From: Thioclava atlantica
GTDB taxonomy: Bacteria > Pseudomonadota > Alphaproteobacteria > Rhodobacterales > Rhodobacteraceae
NCBI RefSeq assembly: GCF_000737065.1
Contig: NZ_AQRC01000006.1
Coordinates: forward strand, 124,001-188,000
Reading direction: 5' to 3'
DNA: 64,000 nt
The position numbers were made by a program, and so were the translations under genes. The notes under the pieces were generated by a model that worked only from the letters and a program-made list of their open reading frames with translations, had not been told where the DNA came from and did no database searches. Numbering within the stretch: position 1 is the stretch's first letter; every line of letters starts with the position of its first letter. Below are positions 36,099 to 54,151 of this stretch, piece after piece.

Positions 36099-36734
36099 AT
36101 GGCCGAAACTTCCGCCCCCGCGAAACTGGACCCGGCAGAGCTGATCGCCTGTCCGCAATGCGACGCGCTGCACCGCGCTGAGCATCTCCCCGAGGGTACC
36201 CGTGCGCGCTGCGTCCGGTGCAAGACGCTGCTCATCGTGCCGAGGGAGCGCTCGTTCCTGCATGTGATCGCGCTTTCCTTCACCGGGATGATCCTGATGA
36301 TCGGGGCGATCTTCTTTCCCTTCCTCGAGATCTCGGCGCGCGGGCTGACCCATGAAAGCTCGATCTTCGGCGTCGCGATGGCCTTTTCCGACGGGTGGCT
36401 CGCGCCGCTGGCCTTCGCGGTGCTATCGATGATCGTCGCGATCCCGGTCTTTCGGTTCCTGGCGCTGATCTACACGCTCTGGCCGCTGGCCAATGGCCAG
36501 CCCGCCTGGCCCCATGCGGCGCTGATCTTCCGGCTCGCCGAAGAGGCGCAGCCCTGGGCGATGGCCGAGATCTTCATCATCGGCACCGCGGTCGCGCTGG
36601 TGAAGATCGCCGGGCTCGCGCAAGTGTCGCTCGGGCCCGCCTTCTGGGCCTTCTGCGTGCTGATCATTGTCACCACGCTCAAGAATTCCTTTGTCAGCAA
36701 ATGGGTCATATGGGACGAGATCGAGCAGAAATGA
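36099..36734 (+). CDS. PqiA-type membrane protein, N-terminal half (zinc ribbon plus membrane domain)
   Basis: 211 aa. The N-terminal zinc ribbon has Cys18, Cys21, Cys38 and Cys41, followed by about four membrane helices with the PqiA-family GAIFFPFLEI motif. E. coli PqiA has two such domains in one polypeptide; here they are two overlapping genes (ATGA junction), so this is the first of a split pair. PqiABC bridges inner and outer membranes for lipid transport. It diverges from motB. Confidence 0.88.
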   Translation: MAETSAPAKLDPAELIACPQCDALHRAEHLPEGTRARCVRCKTLLIVPRERSFLHVIALSFTGMILMIGAIFFPFLEISARGLTHESSIFGVAMAFSDGWLAPLAFAVLSMIVAIPVFRFLALIYTLWPLANGQPAWPHAALIFRLAEEAQPWAMAEIFIIGTAVALVKIAGLAQVSLGPAFWAFCVLIIVTTLKNSFVSKWVIWDEIEQK

Positions 36735-37348
36735 ACGTGCTGACCGCCACCGATGCCGGCTTCACCGGCTGCACGCGCTGCGGCCGGGTCTGGCCTCGTG
36801 AGGACAGCCATTGCGGGCGTTGCGGGGCCAAGCTGCATACCGTGGACCGGCACGGTCTGCAGGCGGTCTGGGCGTGGTGGCTCGCCGGCCTGATCTTCTA
36901 CATCCCGGCCAATTTCTATCCGATGCTGCTGACCCAGACGCTGACCGGGGAACAGAAGAACACCATCGTCGGCGGGGCGATCGAACTCTGGCGCCATCAC
37001 AATTACGGGGTGGCGCTGATCGTTTTCGGCGCGTCGGTGCTGATCCCGATCGGCAAGTTCATCGCGATCGCCTATCTCGCCCTCGCGGTGGGCAACGAGC
37101 GTCGCCGCGGCGGCCATCCGCATCTGCACCTCTACGAGGTGGTCGAGTTCATCGGGCGCTGGTCGATGATCGACGTCTTCGTGGTCGCGATCCTCTCGGC
37201 GCTGGTGCAGCTTGGCTTCGTGGCATCGATTCATCCCGGGCCTGCCGCGGCGTCTTTCGCCCTTTCTGTTGCATTCACCATGCTCTCGGCCCAAAGCTTC
37301 GACCCGCGCCTGATCTGGCGCGGCCCTGAAAGAGTGACTTCTGCATGA
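36731..37348 (+). CDS. PqiA-type membrane protein, C-terminal half
   Basis: 205 aa from ATG 36731, overlapping the preceding stop. The second zinc ribbon has Cys14, Cys17, Cys28 and Cys31, followed by membrane helices with IPANFYPMLLT and GRWSMIDVFVVAIL, the PqiA signature. Its stop overlaps the PqiB-like ATG by four bases, indicating tight coupling. Together with the previous gene it would form the inner-membrane component of a Pqi/Let-type system. Confidence 0.88.
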   Translation: MNVLTATDAGFTGCTRCGRVWPREDSHCGRCGAKLHTVDRHGLQAVWAWWLAGLIFYIPANFYPMLLTQTLTGEQKNTIVGGAIELWRHHNYGVALIVFGASVLIPIGKFIAIAYLALAVGNERRRGGHPHLHLYEVVEFIGRWSMIDVFVVAILSALVQLGFVASIHPGPAAASFALSVAFTMLSAQSFDPRLIWRGPERVTSA

Positions 37349-39369
37349 ACGACACGCCCGAGCCCGGCCCCGCGAAACTCGAGACCTCGCAAGCGCCGCG
37401 TCCGATCTGGACGCGGCTCTCGGTGGTCTGGATCGTGCCGCTTCTGGCGCTCGTGGTGACGCTCGGCGTCGCCTGGAAGACATTCGCGGACCGGGGCGCG
37501 CTGATCGAGATCGACTTCAAGGATGCCACGGGGGTCGAGATCGGCACCCCGCTGAAGTTCCGCGAGGTTCAGGTCGGCAAGGTCGAGACGATCGGCTTCA
37601 CCGCGGACCTCACGCAGGTGCGGCTCGGCGTCCGGGTCGACAAGGACGTCGTGCCCTATATCGACACCGAGGCGAAGTTCTGGCTGGTGCGTCCTGAGGT
37701 TTCGGCGCGCGGCATCCAGAATCTCGGGACGGTGCTTTCGGGCACCTATATCGAGGGCTACTGGAACGACAAGCCGAAGGGCCAGAAGGCCCTGTTCGAG
37801 GGGCTCGACCAGCCGCCGATTTCCCCGGATTCGACGAAGGGCACCCTGATCGAACTGCGCGCGAAGGAGGCGGGCGGCATCGCCGATGGCGCACCGGTTC
37901 TCTATCACGGGCTCACTGCCGGGCATCTGCAGAACCTGCGGCTCGACAAGGACGGCTCGGGCGTCGTCGTCGATGCCTTCATCGACGCCCCCTACAACAA
38001 GCTCCTCTCGACCCAGACGCGGTTCTGGGACACGTCCGGCTTCTCGGTGAAGTTCGACGCCTCCGGCCTGAGCCTCGACGTGCAGTCCCTGGCGACGCTC
38101 GTGCAGGGCGGCGTGGAGTTCGAGACCTTCACCAGCGGCGGCGACATCGTCGATAGCGGTCACGCGTTCCGGCTCTTCACCAGCCGCGATACGGCGGAGA
38201 ATTCGGTGTTCCAGTCCGATGTCGTCGATCCGCCGCGCTACACGCTTCTCTTCGACGATCCGGTGCAGGGGCTCGAGGTCGGGTCGAAGGTTCAGTTCCG
38301 CGGGGTCGAGGCGGGCGAGGTGACAGCCCTCGCGATCAAGATCCGCACCGATTCCTCCGGGCAGCGCTACGCGCAGCAGCAGGTGACGATCGCGCTCTCG
38401 CCCGACCGTCTGGGGCTTGCGCGCGATTCCAAATCGGATGCCGTCACGCAATTCCTGCAAGGCGAGGTCGAGAACGGCCTGCGCGCACGGATCGCGGCGA
38501 TCGGGCTGCTGGGCGGGACGATGGTGATCGAACTGAGCGACGTGCCGGACCAGCCCAAGGCCGAGATGAACCTGAACGCGGACCCCTTCCCGACCATTCC
38601 GACCGCGCCCGCGGCCGAGAACGATCTGGCGAAATCCGCCGAGGGCGTCTTCAAGCGCATCGAGGGGCTGCCGATCGAGGAAGTCCTCAGCTCCGCGATC
38701 CGCGCGCTCGACTCGATCTCGGCTGTGGCCGAGAGCGAGGACACGCGCAAAGTGCCGGGAGAACTGGCGGGGCTGCTGGAGCAGCTGCGCACCTTCGCGG
38801 GCGATCTCAACAAGAAGGATGCGGCGGAAAAGACGGTGAAGGCGCTCGACCGGGTGACCGAGGCGGCCTCCTCGGTGCTCGAGGAAATCGACGGTCTGCA
38901 CGAGACGCTGGCCTCGGCCGACCGGGCGGCGACCGCGATCGCGGACATGCCGCTCAACGATATCGGGCAGAAGATCGACCTGATTCTCGCGGATATCAAC
39001 GGTCTCCTGAACAAGCCGGGCACGCAGGACCTGCCGCAATCGCTCAACGCGACGCTGGAACAGACCGCGAGCCTGCTCAAGGAGCTGCGCGACGCCGGCG
39101 CCGCCGAGAAGCTGAACCAGACGCTCGATGCGACGCAGCAGGCGGCCGGGTCGATCTCGCAGGCGGCCGACCGCCTTCCCGACCTGACCGAGAAGCTCCA
39201 GGCCCTGATCGACCAGGCCCGCGCGCTGGTCTCGACCTATGGGCAGGGCTCGAACTTCTCGAGCGAAACCCTCACCACCCTGCGCGAGCTGCGCCGGTCG
39301 ATCGCGGATATCGGCTCGCTCGCGCGGATGATCGAACGTAACCCCCGCGCCTTCCTGCTGGGCCGCTGA
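37345..39369 (+). CDS. pqiB: MCE-domain protein PqiB
   Basis: 674 aa. One N-terminal membrane anchor (about 24-44) is followed by three MCE (MlaD) domains, starting near residues 50, 160 and 295. Each has the hallmark pattern of a D/E-rich beta strand and G-x-V-x-F/Y-R/H-G-V/L-x-x-G (for example GAPVLYHGLTAGHL, GSKVQFRGVEAGEV). A long helical C-terminus (about 420-660) forms the needle as in E. coli PqiB. It tunnels lipids across the periplasm. Confidence 0.92.
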   Translation: MNDTPEPGPAKLETSQAPRPIWTRLSVVWIVPLLALVVTLGVAWKTFADRGALIEIDFKDATGVEIGTPLKFREVQVGKVETIGFTADLTQVRLGVRVDKDVVPYIDTEAKFWLVRPEVSARGIQNLGTVLSGTYIEGYWNDKPKGQKALFEGLDQPPISPDSTKGTLIELRAKEAGGIADGAPVLYHGLTAGHLQNLRLDKDGSGVVVDAFIDAPYNKLLSTQTRFWDTSGFSVKFDASGLSLDVQSLATLVQGGVEFETFTSGGDIVDSGHAFRLFTSRDTAENSVFQSDVVDPPRYTLLFDDPVQGLEVGSKVQFRGVEAGEVTALAIKIRTDSSGQRYAQQQVTIALSPDRLGLARDSKSDAVTQFLQGEVENGLRARIAAIGLLGGTMVIELSDVPDQPKAEMNLNADPFPTIPTAPAAENDLAKSAEGVFKRIEGLPIEEVLSSAIRALDSISAVAESEDTRKVPGELAGLLEQLRTFAGDLNKKDAAEKTVKALDRVTEAASSVLEEIDGLHETLASADRAATAIADMPLNDIGQKIDLILADINGLLNKPGTQDLPQSLNATLEQTASLLKELRDAGAAEKLNQTLDATQQAAGSISQAADRLPDLTEKLQALIDQARALVSTYGQGSNFSSETLTTLRELRRSIADIGSLARMIERNPRAFLLGR

Positions 39370-39381
39370 CAGGAGATGACG

Positions 39382-39945
39382 ATGTCCGGACTGCGCCTGC
39401 TCCCGCTCTGCCTATTGGCTCTGGCGGCCTGTTCCGACCCGGAGAAGGTCGCACGCTACCCGATCGACCCTCCCACCGCGCAAAAGGTTCTGCCCGACCG
39501 CCTGGGCCGGGCTGAGCTGCGCGAGGTGACGATGCCGCAATACGCGACCGCGCAGGAGATCCCTTACCAGACGGCGGACGGGGCGCTGCGCTCCAATCCC
39601 GACAACCTCTGGGCCAACGATCCGGCGCAGGCGGTGACGCAGGCTCTGGCGCGGCAGATCTCGGGGCTCACCGGGGCGACGGTTCTGGCAGAACCCTGGC
39701 CGCTCTCGTCGCCGCCCGCGCGCCGCATCGAGGTGCGGATCGAGCAGATGCTGCCCGGTTCCGACGGATTGCTGCATGTGGCCGGGGTCTATTTCGTCAC
39801 GCCGGCCGGCGGCGAGATCGGACGCGACATCGTGCGGCGGTTCGATTTCACCGTGCCGATTGCGGATCAGGAACCGGGAACGATCGCGAAGGCGCAAAGT
39901 CTCGCTGTGACCGAGCTCGCCCGGCGGATCGCTCAGCTCGGCTGA
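39382..39945 (+). CDS. pqiC: PqiC-like lipoprotein (ABC-type transport auxiliary domain)
   Basis: 187 aa from ATG 39382, because AGGAG lies six bases upstream; ATG 39376 would abut it. The lipobox LAAC places the lipid-modified Cys at residue 17. The mature domain matches the PqiC/YmbA fold, with RYPIDPPT and RRIEVRIEQML stretches. PqiC is the outer-membrane lipoprotein that meets the PqiB needle. The 3' end overlaps the convergent flavin reductase by 13 bases. Confidence 0.87.
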   Translation: MSGLRLLPLCLLALAACSDPEKVARYPIDPPTAQKVLPDRLGRAELREVTMPQYATAQEIPYQTADGALRSNPDNLWANDPAQAVTQALARQISGLTGATVLAEPWPLSSPPARRIEVRIEQMLPGSDGLLHVAGVYFVTPAGGEIGRDIVRRFDFTVPIADQEPGTIAKAQSLAVTELARRIAQLG

Positions 39946-40499
39946 GCGTCGGGGACGAAGCCGCCGAACTGGCCGCCCGAGAAGATGAGCGGCGTGCCGT
40001 CCGGGTCGGCGGTGAAACGGGTGACGCGGCCGATGATGATGGTGTGATCGCCGCCGTCATGGCGCGCCTCGGTCACGCATTCGAACCGCGCCAGCGTATC
40101 GGCCAGCAGCGGCACGCCATCCTCGTTCATCGTGTAATCGAGCCCGTCGAAACGATCCCCGCTGCGCGTGAAGCGGCGCGCGAGACCGGATTGATCGTGG
40201 CGCAGCACATGCACCGCGAAGGCGGGGGCTTCGGTGTAATGCGCGTGGCGCATCGAGGAGCGCGCGGCCGACCACAGGATCAAAGCGGGCGACAGCGAGA
40301 CCGAGGCGAAGCTGTTCACCGTGATTCCGATCGGGTTGCCCTCTCCGCCGCATTCGCAGGCGGTGACCACCGTCACGCCGGTCGCGAACCGTCCGAGCGC
40401 GTCACGCAACAGGCGCGGTTCGGCCGGATCCGGCACATGGCCCCGCCCCGAAGCTTCGGCCCGGTCCATCGCGGCTTCGATATCGTCGCTCTCGCGCAT
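39933..40499 (-). CDS. Flavin reductase-like domain protein
   Basis: 188 aa from ATG 40499, with AAGGGAG seven bases upstream. FMN-binding split-barrel family: LRDALGRFATGVTVVT, GITVNSFASVSLSPALILW and FAVHVL are the classic motifs of two-component monooxygenase reductases. It lies 51 bases after the DoxX gene of the bufferin operon with no T-rich terminator between, so it may be co-transcribed. Whether it supplies reduced flavin or iron-reducing power to the bufferin enzyme is speculation. Confidence 0.87.
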   Translation of the reverse strand: MRESDDIEAAMDRAEASGRGHVPDPAEPRLLRDALGRFATGVTVVTACECGGEGNPIGITVNSFASVSLSPALILWSAARSSMRHAHYTEAPAFAVHVLRHDQSGLARRFTRSGDRFDGLDYTMNEDGVPLLADTLARFECVTEARHDGGDHTIIIGRVTRFTADPDGTPLIFSGGQFGGFVPDAQPS

Positions 40500-40550: not shown

Positions 40551-41018
40551 TCAACGTTCCAAACCGAGCGCCCGGTCGAGGGAAAACCGTCCCGGTCCCT
40601 TCGTGATCACGACGAGAAAGGCAGTGGCCCAGAGCCCATGCGTGACCCAGGCGCCCGGATAGACGAAGATCTGGATCACCAGCGTCATTCCCAGAAGGGC
40701 GAGCGCGGCGGCGCGGCTGGCAAACCCGAGAATGAGCAGCACGGGAAAGAGATGCTCGGCCGTCGTTGCCATCACCGCCGCCCATTCATGCGGAAGGAAA
40801 GGCAGGTCGTATTCGTATTCGAAGAGCGTGTAGGTCGCGTCGCGGATCGAGAACCCCTCGACCTTGGTGCGGCCCGACATCCAGAACACCACCGCGGGAA
40901 ACACCCGTGCGGCGATCAACAGGATATCCTCGGGGAGCGCCGATAGCGCGGAGGCGAACGTCCGGTAGAGGCGAAACAGAGGCTGTTTCGGCGCCGAAGC
41001 GCGGGGTGTGCCCATCAT
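40551..41018 (-). CDS. bufD: DoxX-family membrane protein of the bufferin operon (BufD-like)
   Basis: 155 aa, four predicted membrane helices (about 30-48, 70-88, 95-115 and 122-145). DoxX features are LLIAARVFPAVVFWMSGRTKVEG and the HLFPVLLILGFASRAAALALL helix. ATG 41018 overlaps the bufC stop and is preceded by GGGAGG eight bases upstream. DoxX proteins are the usual fourth gene of bufferin operons; the molecular role is not established. Confidence 0.85.
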   Translation of the reverse strand: MMGTPRASAPKQPLFRLYRTFASALSALPEDILLIAARVFPAVVFWMSGRTKVEGFSIRDATYTLFEYEYDLPFLPHEWAAVMATTAEHLFPVLLILGFASRAAALALLGMTLVIQIFVYPGAWVTHGLWATAFLVVITKGPGRFSLDRALGLER

Positions 41019-41785
41019 GTCTGATCCTCCCTGTGGCCCGCGCCGACGATCAGCGCGTTCTCCAATAGCAGCGCGAAGGCGGCGTTGAGATCGAAGCCGT
41101 CCCCGGCATGCGAATGCGCTTCCGCGACGTTCGCGCCCTCCATCAGATGGGCGAGAAACCGTCCGGTCGCGGGCGTGATCACCACCGTGATCACATGGGC
41201 GATCCCCCTGCGCGCCACCAGCACGGTTTCGGCGCACCATTGATCGGGCGCGGGCGGCCGCGGCCCGTCAGGCTGCTGCGAGGCCCAGATCGACCCTGCC
41301 GGCGTGGCGAGCTGCAGGATCTGGGTGGACGGGTGCAGGTAGAGCTGAAGACCCTCACCGATACGTTCCGCGAACCGGCGCAGATCCTCGGGGCGCAGGG
41401 GAGCGGCATCCTGCGCATGATAGGCGCGGCTGCGCGCCCATTCGATCCGGGCGATGTCCGGAAGATAGGGAAGATCGGAAAGCGTCTCTGTTTCCGCCAG
41501 AAACAGCGCGAACCGACCGCCCCATTCGGTCAGGATCGGGGTGCGGGGCGGATGGCGCTCGATATAGAGCGCGGCGAGGCCTGCGAAACATTCGGGGCCG
41601 ACCAGTCGCTCCACAACCGGGTAATGCCGGGCGAGCGCCCGCGATAGCCCGTGCGCGACGTTGTTGCGGTAGACGCGGAAGCGGTGTTCCGTCTCCGAAG
41701 GCGCAGTGCTCGTCGCGCCTTCGGGTACCGGCCCACCGGAAATCCCGCCAAGGAAATTCCGCGCGAATTTACGATGCGAGCGCAT
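41015..41785 (-). CDS. bufC: DUF2063 protein, partner of the bufferin-modifying enzyme (BufC-like)
   Basis: 256 aa. The N-terminal DUF2063 region contains [29 protein letters not shown] and [13 protein letters not shown], the family's conserved blocks. The C-terminal half is a separate domain. In MNIO-dependent RiPP pathways the DUF2063 partner contacts precursor and enzyme. It overlaps bufB by 17 bases, indicating stoichiometric co-translation. Confidence 0.9.
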
Positions 41786-42611
41786 GGGACGCCCCCGCCA
41801 ATATGCCTCCGGCGCGCTCGGCCTCCGCCATCAGCGTCGCGAAATCGGGCAGGTCGTTATCCCATTCGATCAGGCTTGCGACAGGCCCGGTTTTCGACAC
41901 TGTTTCGGCGAAAAGTGCCCAAACCGGTTCGGCGACGGAGCGCCCGTGACTGTCGATCAGAAGCGGACCCGAGGGAAGCTCCTCCTCCTCGTGGCCCGCC
42001 AGATGGATCTCGCCCACCTTCTCCAGCGGGAACCGGGCCAGGTAGCCCCGCGGATCGCTCCGGTGGTTCACGCAGGAGACGAAGACATTGTTCACATCAA
42101 GCAGCAGACCGTAGCCGGTGCGCGCCGAGATCTCCGCCAGAAACGCGGTCTCGGGAATGTCGGATTCCTCGAACAGCAGATAGGTCGCGGGATTTTCGAG
42201 CAGGACCTGCCGACCCAGATGGGTCTGAAGCTGGTCGATGTGATCGCAGATGAGGTTCAGCGTCTCCCGGGTGTAGGGCAGGGGCAGCAGATCGTGCATC
42301 CAGATCCCGTTATGGCTGGCCCAGGCGAGATGTTCGGAGAAGCTTTCGGGTTCGTAGCGGGCGCAAAGTGCGCTGAGCCGGTCGAGATGGTCCGTATCGA
42401 GAGGGTCCGGGCCGCCGATCGACAGGCCGACGCCGTGGATCGAGATCGCATAATCCTGTCGCAGCCGCTCGAGCATCGCGTGGGGCATCCCGCCCGCACC
42501 CATGTAATTCTCGGCATGGATCTCGAAAAACCCCAGATCGGGTTTCGTTTCGGCGATCGCGGGGTAATGTTCGGGTTTGAACCCGAGCCCCGGTTTTGCT
42601 GGCAGTCGCAT
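41769..42611 (-). CDS. bufB: DUF692 multinuclear non-heme iron oxidative enzyme (BufB-like MNIO)
   Basis: 280 aa from ATG 42611, with GGAGGAGA just upstream. TIM-barrel DUF692 family. Conserved metal-site residues lie in FEIHAEN (30-35), SIHG (His59), EHLAW (His94), LLDVNN (Asp172, Asn174-175), HLAGHE (His203, His207), DSHG (220-223) and IEWDN (Glu249). Related MNIOs (MbnB, BufB) oxidise precursor cysteines to heterocycles. The neighbouring DUF2282 precursor defines the substrate. Confidence 0.93.
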
Positions 42612-42664
42612 CTCGTCTCCTCCCTGAAGAGGCGGGGAGGGCCTGGCCCACCCCGCGCCTGTGA

Positions 42665-42943
42665 TCACATCTCCTTGGGCTTCAGCGACCCCATGCCGTG
42701 CGGAGTCTCGATCGACTCGCAGGTGCCGGCGGGAACGAGTTTCCAGGCATTCGCCTGATAGTCCTTCGTCGCGGTCCCCGCGCAGGTCGTGCCCGGACCG
42801 GCCGCGCAATCGTTCTGGCCGGCGAGCGCGACGCCGTAGCACTTCTCCATATCCTTCGACATGTCGTCGGCGTGAGCCGCGCTGGCGAGCCCGAGCGCGC
42901 AGGTCAGAGCGGTGGCGATGCCAAGGGTGGTTTCGGTCTTCAT
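42665..42943 (-). CDS. bufA: DUF2282 bufferin precursor peptide (BufA-like)
   Basis: 92 aa from ATG 42943, with AGGGAG upstream. A Sec signal peptide is cleaved after SAAHA (about residue 24). The mature part carries four cysteines (35, 46, 54, 75) in the DUF2282 signature [38 protein letters not shown]. Bufferins of this family are exported RiPPs whose central cysteines are converted to thiooxazoles and which bind copper. Here Cys46 and Cys54 would be the central pair. First gene of the operon. Confidence 0.92.
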
Positions 42944-42990
42944 TCTTGATCTCCCTGATTGGATCGGACCCGGAATGGTCCTGACTGCTC

Positions 42991-43017
42991 TTCGCAACGG
43001 ATCGCGAATGCGTTACA
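42991..43017 (-). promoter_or_regulatory. Predicted ECF promoter of the bufferin operon
   Basis: On the minus strand TGTAAC (43012-43017) and CGAA (42991-42994) are separated by 17 bases. TGTAAC-type -35 and CGAA-like -10 elements are typical of ECF sigma factors. The predicted start site would leave a leader of about 40 bases before bufA. The same signature faces the sigma gene on the other strand. Confidence 0.6.
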
Positions 43018-43057
43018 TGCTCACGGCAGCGTGATCGAAAAAGTTTTTCCCTCGCGC

Positions 43058-43084
43058 TGTAACGAATGCATGATCGGCGCCGAA
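43058..43084 (+). promoter_or_regulatory. Predicted autoregulatory ECF promoter of the sigma gene
   Basis: TGTAAC (43058-43063), a 17-base spacer and CGAA (43081-43084), identical in elements and spacing to the bufA-facing copy. Transcription would begin only a few bases before ATG 43094, implying a very short leader or leaderless message. Confidence 0.55.
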
Positions 43085-43093
43085 AGGAAGGCG

Positions 43094-43645
43094 ATGATGC
43101 ATGATCGGAAGGCTGACTGGTCGCAGCTCTTGCGGGCTGCCAACGCAGGCGATACCCGCGCCTACGGGCTCTTCCTGCATGCGGTGACCCCGGTCCTGCG
43201 CAGTGTCGTCCGGTCCCGGGGGACGGGGCTCGGCGAGGCCGATTGCGAGGATGTTGTGCAAGAGGTGCTGCTCGCCATTCATCTGAAGCGTCACACCTGG
43301 CGCGAGGACGAGCCCGCCGCGCCCTGGTGCTACGCGATCGCGCGTCACAAGGTCGTGGATGCGTTCCGGCGGCGCGGCCGGCGCATTCATCTCCCGGTGG
43401 AGGATTTCGCCGAGGTCCTGCCCGCCGCGCCCGAGGCCGATCCTACGGAAAAGGCCGATATAGAGAGGTTTATTTCCCATCTCGAGCCGCGCGCCGCGCA
43501 ATTGGTGCGCGCGATCGGGCTCGATGGGAAGAGCATCGCCGAGACCGGCGAGGAACTTGAAATGAGCGAGGGCGCCGTGCGGGTCATGCTGCATCGCAGC
43601 CTGAAGAAACTGGCGGCGCTTCGAGAGAGGCTGATCGAGATATGA
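43094..43645 (+). CDS. ECF-family RNA polymerase sigma factor (SigF-like)
   Basis: 183 aa from ATG 43094 (ATG 43097 equally possible); upstream in-frame codons overlap the promoter region. Region 2 contains [20 protein letters not shown] and the -10-reading [18 protein letters not shown]. Region 4 has the helix-turn-helix [31 protein letters not shown]. It lies divergent to bufA and is followed by an NrsF-type anti-sigma, as for Caulobacter SigF, whose regulon includes DUF2282 genes. It is likely to switch on the bufferin operon under metal stress. Confidence 0.9.
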
Positions 43646-44271
43646 AAACGGACGAGTTGCTGACACTTCTGGAACGCGACAAGCTGCGTGAGCCGCAGGC
43701 GGGTCAGGCGCTGCGCGTGTGGCTGGGGCCTGCGCTCATCCTCTCGGCCGTGGCGATGATGCTGCTTTTCGGGATCCGTTTTCCGATGCAGAAGACCCTG
43801 TTGACGCCGGAAATCGCGCCGAAATTCTATCTTCCGCTCCTCATTGGCCTGATCGCGACGCCGGTCGCATTGCGTCTGGCGCGTCCGCTTGGGCGCGTGC
43901 GGCTCGGCTGGATCTGGATTTTCCCGCTGCTCGGGATCGCCTTGCTCGGCTATGCCTATGTGACGACGCCGGCGGATGAGCGGGTGGCGGATTTCACCGG
44001 GCAGACGATTCTGCCCTGCCTCCTCTCGGTGCCGCTTTTCTCGGCCCCGATGCTCGGTGCGCTCATTCTGAGCCTGCGCAAGGGCGCGGTGATGGCGCCC
44101 GAACGCGCCGGAGCTCTTGCCGGGCTTGCGGCGGGCGGGCTCGGCACGGCGATCTATGCGCTCCATTGCACCGAGGACAGCCCGCTCTTCTATGTCACCT
44201 GGTACGGGGCCGGGATCGGGTTGACCGTCCTGATCGGGATGTTTCTGGGGCGTAAATTCCTGCGCTGGTAG
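43642..44271 (+). CDS. nrsF: NrsF/DUF1109-type membrane anti-sigma factor
   Basis: 209 aa, six predicted membrane helices after a 25-residue cytoplasmic N-terminus that could hold the sigma factor. DUF1109 features include KFYLPLLIGL and HCTEDSPLFYVTWYG. The two conserved cysteines of this family are present at Cys126 (LPCLLSVP) and Cys176 (HCTED), as in Caulobacter NrsF, where they are needed for the metal-stress response. The ATG overlaps the sigma stop by four bases. Confidence 0.92.
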   Translation: MKTDELLTLLERDKLREPQAGQALRVWLGPALILSAVAMMLLFGIRFPMQKTLLTPEIAPKFYLPLLIGLIATPVALRLARPLGRVRLGWIWIFPLLGIALLGYAYVTTPADERVADFTGQTILPCLLSVPLFSAPMLGALILSLRKGAVMAPERAGALAGLAAGGLGTAIYALHCTEDSPLFYVTWYGAGIGLTVLIGMFLGRKFLRW

Positions 44272-44274
44272 GCT

Positions 44275-45060
44275 CTATCCCGGCCAAGAGGCGAGTTTTT
44301 CCAGGAAAGCATCATGCAGCGACGGGTTGGAGACGATCAGCCCGTCGGATTGCGGCAAGGCGCGATTGAAGCGCAGCGGCGCGCCGCGCTGGTCGGTCGC
44401 GCGAAGCCCGGCGCGCTCGGCGATGAGGCTGCCCGCGGCGATGTCCCATTCCCAGGCCTTGCGCAGCGAAATCGTCGCGTCGAACTTCCCCTCGGCCACG
44501 AGGCAGAGCCGCCAGGCGAGCGAGGGCCGGAAGCTGCGCCGATAGGCTGGCGGTCCGTCGCGCCAATGCGCAGGGTCGTCGGAGAGTTTCGAGGTCAGGA
44601 CGCTCGCGCCCTCCAAAGCCGCGCGCGTGCCGGGCTGCAGCGGTTTGCCGTTGAGCAGCGCGGGACCGTCGACGGTGGCGCTGTAGGTCAGGCCATGCAC
44701 CGGGAGATGCACGACGCCGGCGACGATCTCCCCCTCGCGTGCCACCGCCAGCGCATGGGAAAACCCGCCATCGCCATTGAGAAAGGCGCGCGTCCCGTCG
44801 ATCGGATCAACGATGAAGGTCGCGCTTGCAGCCAGTCGCGCGGGGTCGTCGGCACTTTCCTCCGACAGCCAGCCGTAATCGGGACGGGCGCCGCGCAGCT
44901 TGTCCTCGAGGAGCGCATTCACCGCGAGATCGGCCTCCGAGACCGGGCCGGCGCCGCCGCCCTTGTCCCAGGCTTCGGGCGCCTTCTTCCAGAAGGAGAG
45001 CGCAAGCTCACCGGCCTTAACGGCGGCCTCGCTCAGCAATTCGAGATCAGTCTCCGGCAA
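44275..45060 (-). CDS. Inositol monophosphatase-family phosphatase (CysQ-like)
   Basis: 261 aa. The lithium-sensitive phosphatase motif DPIDGTRAFLNG and the upstream EE metal ligands (LSEES) are present, with the C-terminal WEWDIAAGSLIAERAG. Members hydrolyse 3'-phosphoadenosine 5'-phosphate or inositol phosphates. Length and motif details favour the CysQ type, but the substrate is not proven. The end lies three bases from the convergent nrsF stop. The start overlaps pmbA by 14 bases. Confidence 0.85.
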   Translation of the reverse strand: MPETDLELLSEAAVKAGELALSFWKKAPEAWDKGGGAGPVSEADLAVNALLEDKLRGARPDYGWLSEESADDPARLAASATFIVDPIDGTRAFLNGDGGFSHALAVAREGEIVAGVVHLPVHGLTYSATVDGPALLNGKPLQPGTRAALEGASVLTSKLSDDPAHWRDGPPAYRRSFRPSLAWRLCLVAEGKFDATISLRKAWEWDIAAGSLIAERAGLRATDQRGAPLRFNRALPQSDGLIVSNPSLHDAFLEKLASWPG

Positions 45061-53388: not shown

Positions 53389-54045
53389 TCAGCTTGCGCT
53401 ATCGGCGCCCGCCTCATTCCACGCGTCGATGAAACAGCCGATCCGGTCCGCCATGTCTTCCGGTTTCGCATCGCGGTTGAAGTATTCGACAAAGCCGATC
53501 TTCGGAAAGACGAGATAGCTCTGCGTCGAGTGGTCGATCAGCGTGTAGGGGTCGTTCGGGTCCTGAACCTTGAAATAGGTGCGGTATTCCTGCGAGACCT
53601 TCTTGACCTGTTCGGGCGTGCCGGTGAGGCCGATCATCTTCGGATGCATCAGGTCGGTGAACTGGCGCAGCAGTTCCGGAGTGTCGCGCGCCGGGTCGAT
53701 CGAGATGAAGACCGGGGTGATCGAATAGCCGTGATCTTCCAGAAGCGTGACGGCCTCGGCGTTGCGCGCATTGTCGAGCGGGCAGACATCCGGGCAATAG
53801 GTATAACCGAAATAGAGAAGGCTGGGCTCGGTGATGACATCCTTATCCGTCACCGTCTTGCCGTTCTCGTCGGTCAGTGTGAACGGCCCGCCGATCGCGC
53901 CCGCACCACCGGCCACCACGCTCGAGCGGCATTGCGCAAAGATGTCTTCGCCGGCATGGCGCGTGCTCGCAAACCAGGTGAAACCAAGACCCGCGACCAC
54001 GGCAAGCGCGGCGCCGATCGCCGAAAATTTCGCGATATTCTTCAT
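53389..54045 (-). CDS. senC: SCO1/SenC-family copper chaperone
   Basis: 218 aa from ATG 54045 (an earlier ATG at 54072 is possible). One N-terminal membrane anchor (about 8-26) and a thioredoxin-like periplasmic domain with the copper ligands Cys84 and Cys88 (YCPDVCP) and His172 (DHSTQSYL). It assembles the CuA/CuB centre of cytochrome oxidase. It lies between regA and regB, as in Rhodobacter. Confidence 0.94.
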   Translation of the reverse strand: MKNIAKFSAIGAALAVVAGLGFTWFASTRHAGEDIFAQCRSSVVAGGAGAIGGPFTLTDENGKTVTDKDVITEPSLLYFGYTYCPDVCPLDNARNAEAVTLLEDHGYSITPVFISIDPARDTPELLRQFTDLMHPKMIGLTGTPEQVKKVSQEYRTYFKVQDPNDPYTLIDHSTQSYLVFPKIGFVEYFNRDAKPEDMADRIGCFIDAWNEAGADSAS

Positions 54046-54151
54046 TCGTCCCTGAGCTCCCTTGCCGTGCATTGATTGCGCGAAGAGGGACGATTATCAA
54101 TGATTTCGTGCCGTGCTCGGCCAAATTGTGCGCTTTTGACGCGGAGGTGAC

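Follow-up and report, generated by a model that had tools for sequence, protein, structure and literature searches.

A predicted Buf1-type bufferin locus with its own SigF/NrsF switch in Thioclava atlantica

Within a 64,000-nucleotide (nt) stretch of the Thioclava atlantica genome (contig NZ_AQRC01000006.1, positions 124,001 to 188,000; hereafter the window), the locus at 40551-44271 is, with high confidence from sequence comparison, a complete Buf1-type system for a bufferin, a family of exported copper-binding peptides that carry thiooxazoles (PMC12452194, PMC12668002), under its own SigF/NrsF switch. The locus type is already described, and the order of genes and promoter signals is as in Caulobacter and Sinorhizobium. 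An earlier note, made from the letters of the DNA, had listed six open reading frames here and proposed profile searches as a check; all six were present and complete at the coordinates given below, and all six proteins exceeded their Pfam gathering cut-offs. The identity it proposed, a bufferin (Buf1) operon, agrees with profiles, conservation and literature, including a 2025 survey of MNIO clusters that counts sigma factor and NrsF genes as Buf1 cluster members (PMC12452194).

Divergent operons and their predicted SigF promoters

The locus comprises the following features:

40551..41018, minus strand: doxX, DoxX-family membrane protein of 155 amino acids, final gene of the buf operon (Pfam DoxX, 6.7e-17)
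41015..41785, minus strand: bufC, DUF2063 partner of the MNIO enzyme, 256 amino acids (Pfam DUF2063, 5.3e-22)
41769..42611, minus strand: bufB, MNIO/DUF692 bufferin maturase, 280 amino acids (Pfam, 3.6e-103)
42665..42943, minus strand: bufA, DUF2282 precursor of 92 amino acids with a Sec signal peptide (Pfam DUF2282, 1e-26)
42991..43016, minus strand: predicted SigF-type bufA promoter, GTAACGcattcgcgatccgttgCGAA, 47 nt upstream of the bufA ATG, serving bufABC-doxX
43059..43084, plus strand: predicted SigF-type sigF promoter, GTAACGaatgcatgatcggcgcCGAA, 9 nt upstream of the sigF ATG, serving sigF-nrsF
43094..43645, plus strand: sigF, ECF sigma factor of ECF16/SigF type, 183 amino acids (Pfam Sigma70_r2/r4_2)
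43642..44271, plus strand: nrsF, DUF1109/NrsF membrane anti-sigma factor, 209 amino acids (Pfam NrsF, 6.8e-48)

Transcription on the minus strand would run through bufA, bufB, bufC and doxX in that order, with sigF and then nrsF divergent on the plus strand. The bufB/bufC and bufC/doxX pairs overlap by a few bases (4 nt for the latter), resembling a translationally coupled operon, and sigF and nrsF likewise overlap by 4 nt. A genome-wide search found a single MNIO gene and a single DUF2282 gene.

Regulatory evidence lies between the two operons. Caulobacter SigF has a published site of the form GTAACC-N16-CGAA (PMC3511200), and the 150-nt bufA-sigF intergenic region carries two divergent copies of GTAACG-N16-CGAA, one per direction. 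These were the only matches to GTAACN17CGAA in the window, where 0.12 would be expected, and none of 100 shuffles contained two. Among sigF-nrsF-linked loci of the genus, the motif stood upstream of bufA in 13 of 13, with the -35 and -10 elements fixed and the spacer variable, and the divergent site on the sigF side read CGAA in 11 of these loci and CGTA in the remaining 2. We then compared 28 linked and 51 unlinked bufferin loci, retrieved by the similarity of their MNIO proteins: the motif preceded bufA in 17 of the former and 4 of the latter (Fisher p = 7.6e-7, a value that overstates the independent evidence because the loci are related by descent). One locus, L043, was counted as unlinked solely because its contig breaks off within sigF or immediately behind it, and moving it would strengthen the contrast. 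Taken together, both sites are promoter-like and we predict that they are SigF promoters, with a motif as in Caulobacter.

Two observations accompany these sites. One same-genus genome carries a second bufA (DUF2282) copy (L180, G171:C23) with neither a linked sigF-nrsF pair nor the upstream motif. At the sigF promoter, only 9 nt separate the end of the -10 element from the start codon, a short spacing that several relatives retain; the sigF mRNA may therefore have almost no leader.

Conserved residues of the maturation and sensing proteins

BufB scored 345 bits against the Pfam MbnB_TglH_ChrH/MNIO family (cut-off 25) and 376.7 against the NCBIfam MNIO_BufB equivalog model for bufferin maturases (cut-off 310), and its nearest named relatives, from Thioclava species, share 82% identity. 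It most likely begins at the ATG at 42611 and not where the longer open frame does. When the window protein was aligned with relatives taken from named genomes, 81 sequences in all, residues H59, H94, E139, D172, N175, H203, D220, H222, E249 and D251 did not vary. These positions line up with the metal site and catalytic base of MNIO enzymes and with the solved Histophilus homologue 3BWW. Loss of the metal ligands from the DUF692 protein, which the earlier note had named as a refutation of its reading, was thus not seen. Through 3BWW, N175, D220 and H222 match the site-3 residues N175, D242 and H244 of HvfB, whose replacement abolishes activity (PMC13419390), and from its local motif D251 appears to be the counterpart of FonB D249, the proposed catalytic base of that enzyme (PMC12668002).

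The partner BufC passed Pfam DUF2063 with 78 bits (cut-off 27.2). A sequence-profile search with BufC against PDB chains returned no match; its AlphaFold2 model (predicted local distance difference test score, pLDDT, 94.7) gave TglHI (8hi7_A) and NGO1945 (3dee) as its sole significant structural matches. As modelled, BufC is of the known MNIO partner fold (PME-type 1, DUF2063-type) and is encoded beside its MNIO. DoxX passed its Pfam family with 62 bits (cut-off 23.6) and weakly resembles the HvfX family, falling under the HvfX cut-off in NCBIfam, as BufC does under that of HvfC.

The precursor BufA scored 93 bits against Pfam DUF2282 (cut-off 22.4). Read by eye from the sequence, it has a predicted Sec signal with an N-terminal lysine, a hydrophobic stretch and an AHA|DD cleavage motif, followed by four mature cysteines, Cys35, Cys46, Cys54 and Cys75, all 100% conserved in 87 sequences. 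The earlier note had expected Cys46 and Cys54 to be modified; this choice is consistent with their conservation and with the characterised Buf1, in which modification falls on the central cysteines and a disulphide joins the outer pair (PMC12452194). By analogy, and because the central pair is the modified one in Buf1, Cys46 and Cys54 would become 5-thiooxazoles. For the Buf1 bufferin, both Cu(I)/Cu(II) binding and protection against copper are described (PMC12452194), and BufA may act likewise. An extra cysteine, Cys15, lies within the signal peptide (window 42899-42901); about 20% of homologues have one, and it does not fit a lipobox.

For the regulatory pair, SigF passed Pfam Sigma70_r2/r4_2 with 40/43 bits (cut-offs 24/25.7) and also NCBIfam PRK12512, and NrsF scored 164 bits against Pfam NrsF (cut-off 26.8) while falling short of the cut-off of the narrow NCBIfam equivalog. 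The only cysteines of NrsF are Cys126 and Cys176, both invariant in a 28-row alignment and 50 residues apart, the spacing of Caulobacter C131/C181 (PMC3511200). The profiles and these invariant residues bear out the earlier description of an ECF sigma factor followed by a two-cysteine DUF1109 anti-sigma factor. Caulobacter NrsF is an inhibitor of SigF that stress inactivates (PMC3511200), and the Thioclava protein would by analogy sense through its cysteines.

Conservation on this scale also bears on whether the locus might be a decayed bufferin operon or an inactive remnant of one. We found no direct support for such decay; a DUF2282 gene was present in 14 of 16 genomes of the genus and missing in two, so the locus can be absent. 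All genes here are intact, with invariant catalytic residues and promoter elements, which largely refutes a remnant and leaves it very improbable.

Regulon extent, trigger and proposed mechanism

Searching the whole genome (3.9 Mb), we found nine GTAACN17CGAA matches, of which three, upstream of bufA, sigF and msrP, were convincingly placed as promoters. The backward control pattern was commoner (19 matches vs 9), so a motif match by itself predicts nothing across the genome, and we claim only sites backed by conservation; a wider SigF regulon was rejected, as the other six matches lay within coding sequence or were unconvincingly placed. The third site (C25:8690-8715) lies on a separate small contig, 50 nt upstream of msrP, which is followed by msrQ; MsrP is a periplasmic methionine-sulfoxide reductase. 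This site was kept in 3 of 3 Thioclava genomes tested and was absent from 15 genomes of the family without NrsF. We therefore consider that msrPQ probably belongs to the SigF regulon, which would then reach periplasmic methionine-sulfoxide repair as in Caulobacter. Since msrPQ is a SigF target there (PMC3511200, PMC8224329), it would be a conserved rather than a new regulon member. The earlier note had called the system self-contained, which needs slight correction, because msrPQ, elsewhere in the genome, carries a SigF-type promoter and enters the predicted regulon.

We propose an order of events by analogy with Caulobacter and with bufferin, fontiphorin and oxazolin chemistry. In the resting state, NrsF, a multi-helix membrane protein, would keep SigF membrane-bound. 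A surplus of copper, or else some other thiol-reactive metal or an oxidant, would perturb the two periplasmic NrsF cysteines and free SigF, which would then transcribe sigF-nrsF, bufABC-doxX and, on the other contig, msrPQ from GTAAC-N17-CGAA promoters. In the cytoplasm, the iron oxidase BufB and its partner BufC would convert Cys46 and Cys54 of BufA into 5-thiooxazoles, Sec would export BufA, and the outer Cys35 and Cys75 would pair. In the periplasm, the thiooxazoles of BufA would chelate copper while MsrPQ repaired oxidised methionines.

The metal-inducibility of the operon claimed in the earlier note is a sound extrapolation from the copper response of Caulobacter, where genes of the SigF regulon belong to the small set that copper induces under every condition and where mutation of sigF brings copper sensitivity (PMC8224329). 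Three points weigh against the reading of the locus and its regulon given here. Neither Cd nor chromate nor H2O2 elicited a response from the Sinorhizobium meliloti orthologue (PMC6180224), and species may thus differ in their inducer. For BufA, AlphaFold2 gave a model of low confidence (pLDDT 53.6), which was too poor for judging a Cys35-Cys75 disulphide and was left unused. Beyond the genus, the msrP site was weak or absent in most other sigF-bearing genomes; its conservation outside Thioclava is unsupported and we rejected it as a family-wide feature.

The same machinery might answer mainly to oxidants such as hypochlorous acid (HOCl), making the regulon an envelope-oxidation response in which the bufferin limits copper-driven damage and MsrPQ repairs methionines. 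The SigF-type promoter of msrPQ fits this, as do the ECF16 systems of Brucella and Azospira, which run MsrPQ-type genes and answer to HOCl/reactive chlorine (PMC8315932). However, in Caulobacter it is Cu, Cr and Cd that induce the regulon, and generators of reactive oxygen species do not (PMC8224329, PMC3511200), and the gene set adjoining sigF, here and in relatives, is bufABC-doxX; we regard an oxidant trigger as possible, though on balance unlikely. A bufferin-type system for gold, silver, zinc or cadmium instead of copper would be in keeping with homologous 'gig' operons, which respond to gold and silver besides copper (Cupriavidus work cited in PMC8224329 and PMC12452194). Against this, copper is the metal that the characterised Buf1 bufferin binds and guards against (PMC12452194), and no sequence feature indicates another metal, which makes a different metal improbable. 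Returning to copper buffering by a single bufferin, we tentatively suggest, as a speculation we would not expect to hold, that in Thioclava-like bacteria one SigF/NrsF switch with about three promoters joins it to MsrPQ repair and is triggered by a thiol-oxidising signal, not by copper itself.

Distribution, neighbouring genes and known systems

This arrangement is widespread. Many loci from Rhodobacterales and rhizobia have the sigF-nrsF pair divergent from bufA, others have it downstream of doxX, and most of the remainder lack it. In nine loci of other Rhodobacterales (L047, L050, L051, L053, L054, L057, L060, L062 and L065), sigF-nrsF sits 3' of doxX on the same strand, and four rhizobial-type loci (L061, L066, L067 and L068) have two tandem DUF2282 precursor genes before one MNIO gene. 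DNA relatives of the locus are also plasmid-borne.

Two flanking genes were considered as parts of the system and excluded, because among the 27 best bufferin loci each was found beside the locus only in three Thioclava: a downstream flavin reductase gene (39936-40499) and a convergent inositol-monophosphatase gene (44275-45060). A PqiABC-like set (PqiA, an MlaD-domain protein and an ABC-type auxiliary lipoprotein; window 36099-39945) adjoins the operon; it is envelope-related and has no SigF motif. About 9 kb away, a SCO1/SenC family protein of copper-chaperone type (window 53392-54048) is encoded beside apparent RegA/RegB-type regulator genes.

The Thioclava locus leaves knowledge of the bufferin family unchanged. 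It is a clean minimal bufferin/SigF example, with a single precursor, maturase and sigma factor and a predicted three-promoter regulon, so Thioclava-type bacteria are handy for studying the signal that NrsF senses and the reason why methionine repair would be co-regulated with copper buffering.

The closest described system is CC3252-CC3257 of Caulobacter crescentus/vibrioides, where nrsF and sigF likewise stand beside DUF2282-DUF692-DUF2063-DoxX genes in the same set and order, with the same promoter motif and with msrPQ (CC2748, msrP) in the regulon (PMC3511200, PMC8224329). The two differ at the sixth base of the -35 element, G or A in Thioclava and C in the Caulobacter consensus, and in gene number: Caulobacter has a second SigF-controlled bufferin operon, CC2907-2905, whereas the Thioclava genome has one gene each for MNIO and DUF2282. 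Sinorhizobium meliloti RpoE7-EcfR7/SMb20530-SMb20527 has the same gene set, with GTAAC...CGAA upstream of rpoE7 and of the first target gene, but differs in that the inducer was not found there (PMC6180224). The 'gig' operons of other hosts hold a homologous bufferin gene set responsive to Cu, Ag and Au (PMC8224329, PMC12452194). The HvfABC-X oxazolin system of Haemophilus influenzae and the related captophorins likewise combine an MNIO, a DUF2063 partner and a DoxX-like protein to yield an exported 5-thiooxazole peptide (PMC12668002, PMC13419390), although the HvfABC-X precursor carries EGKCG repeats where that of Thioclava carries a DUF2282 domain.

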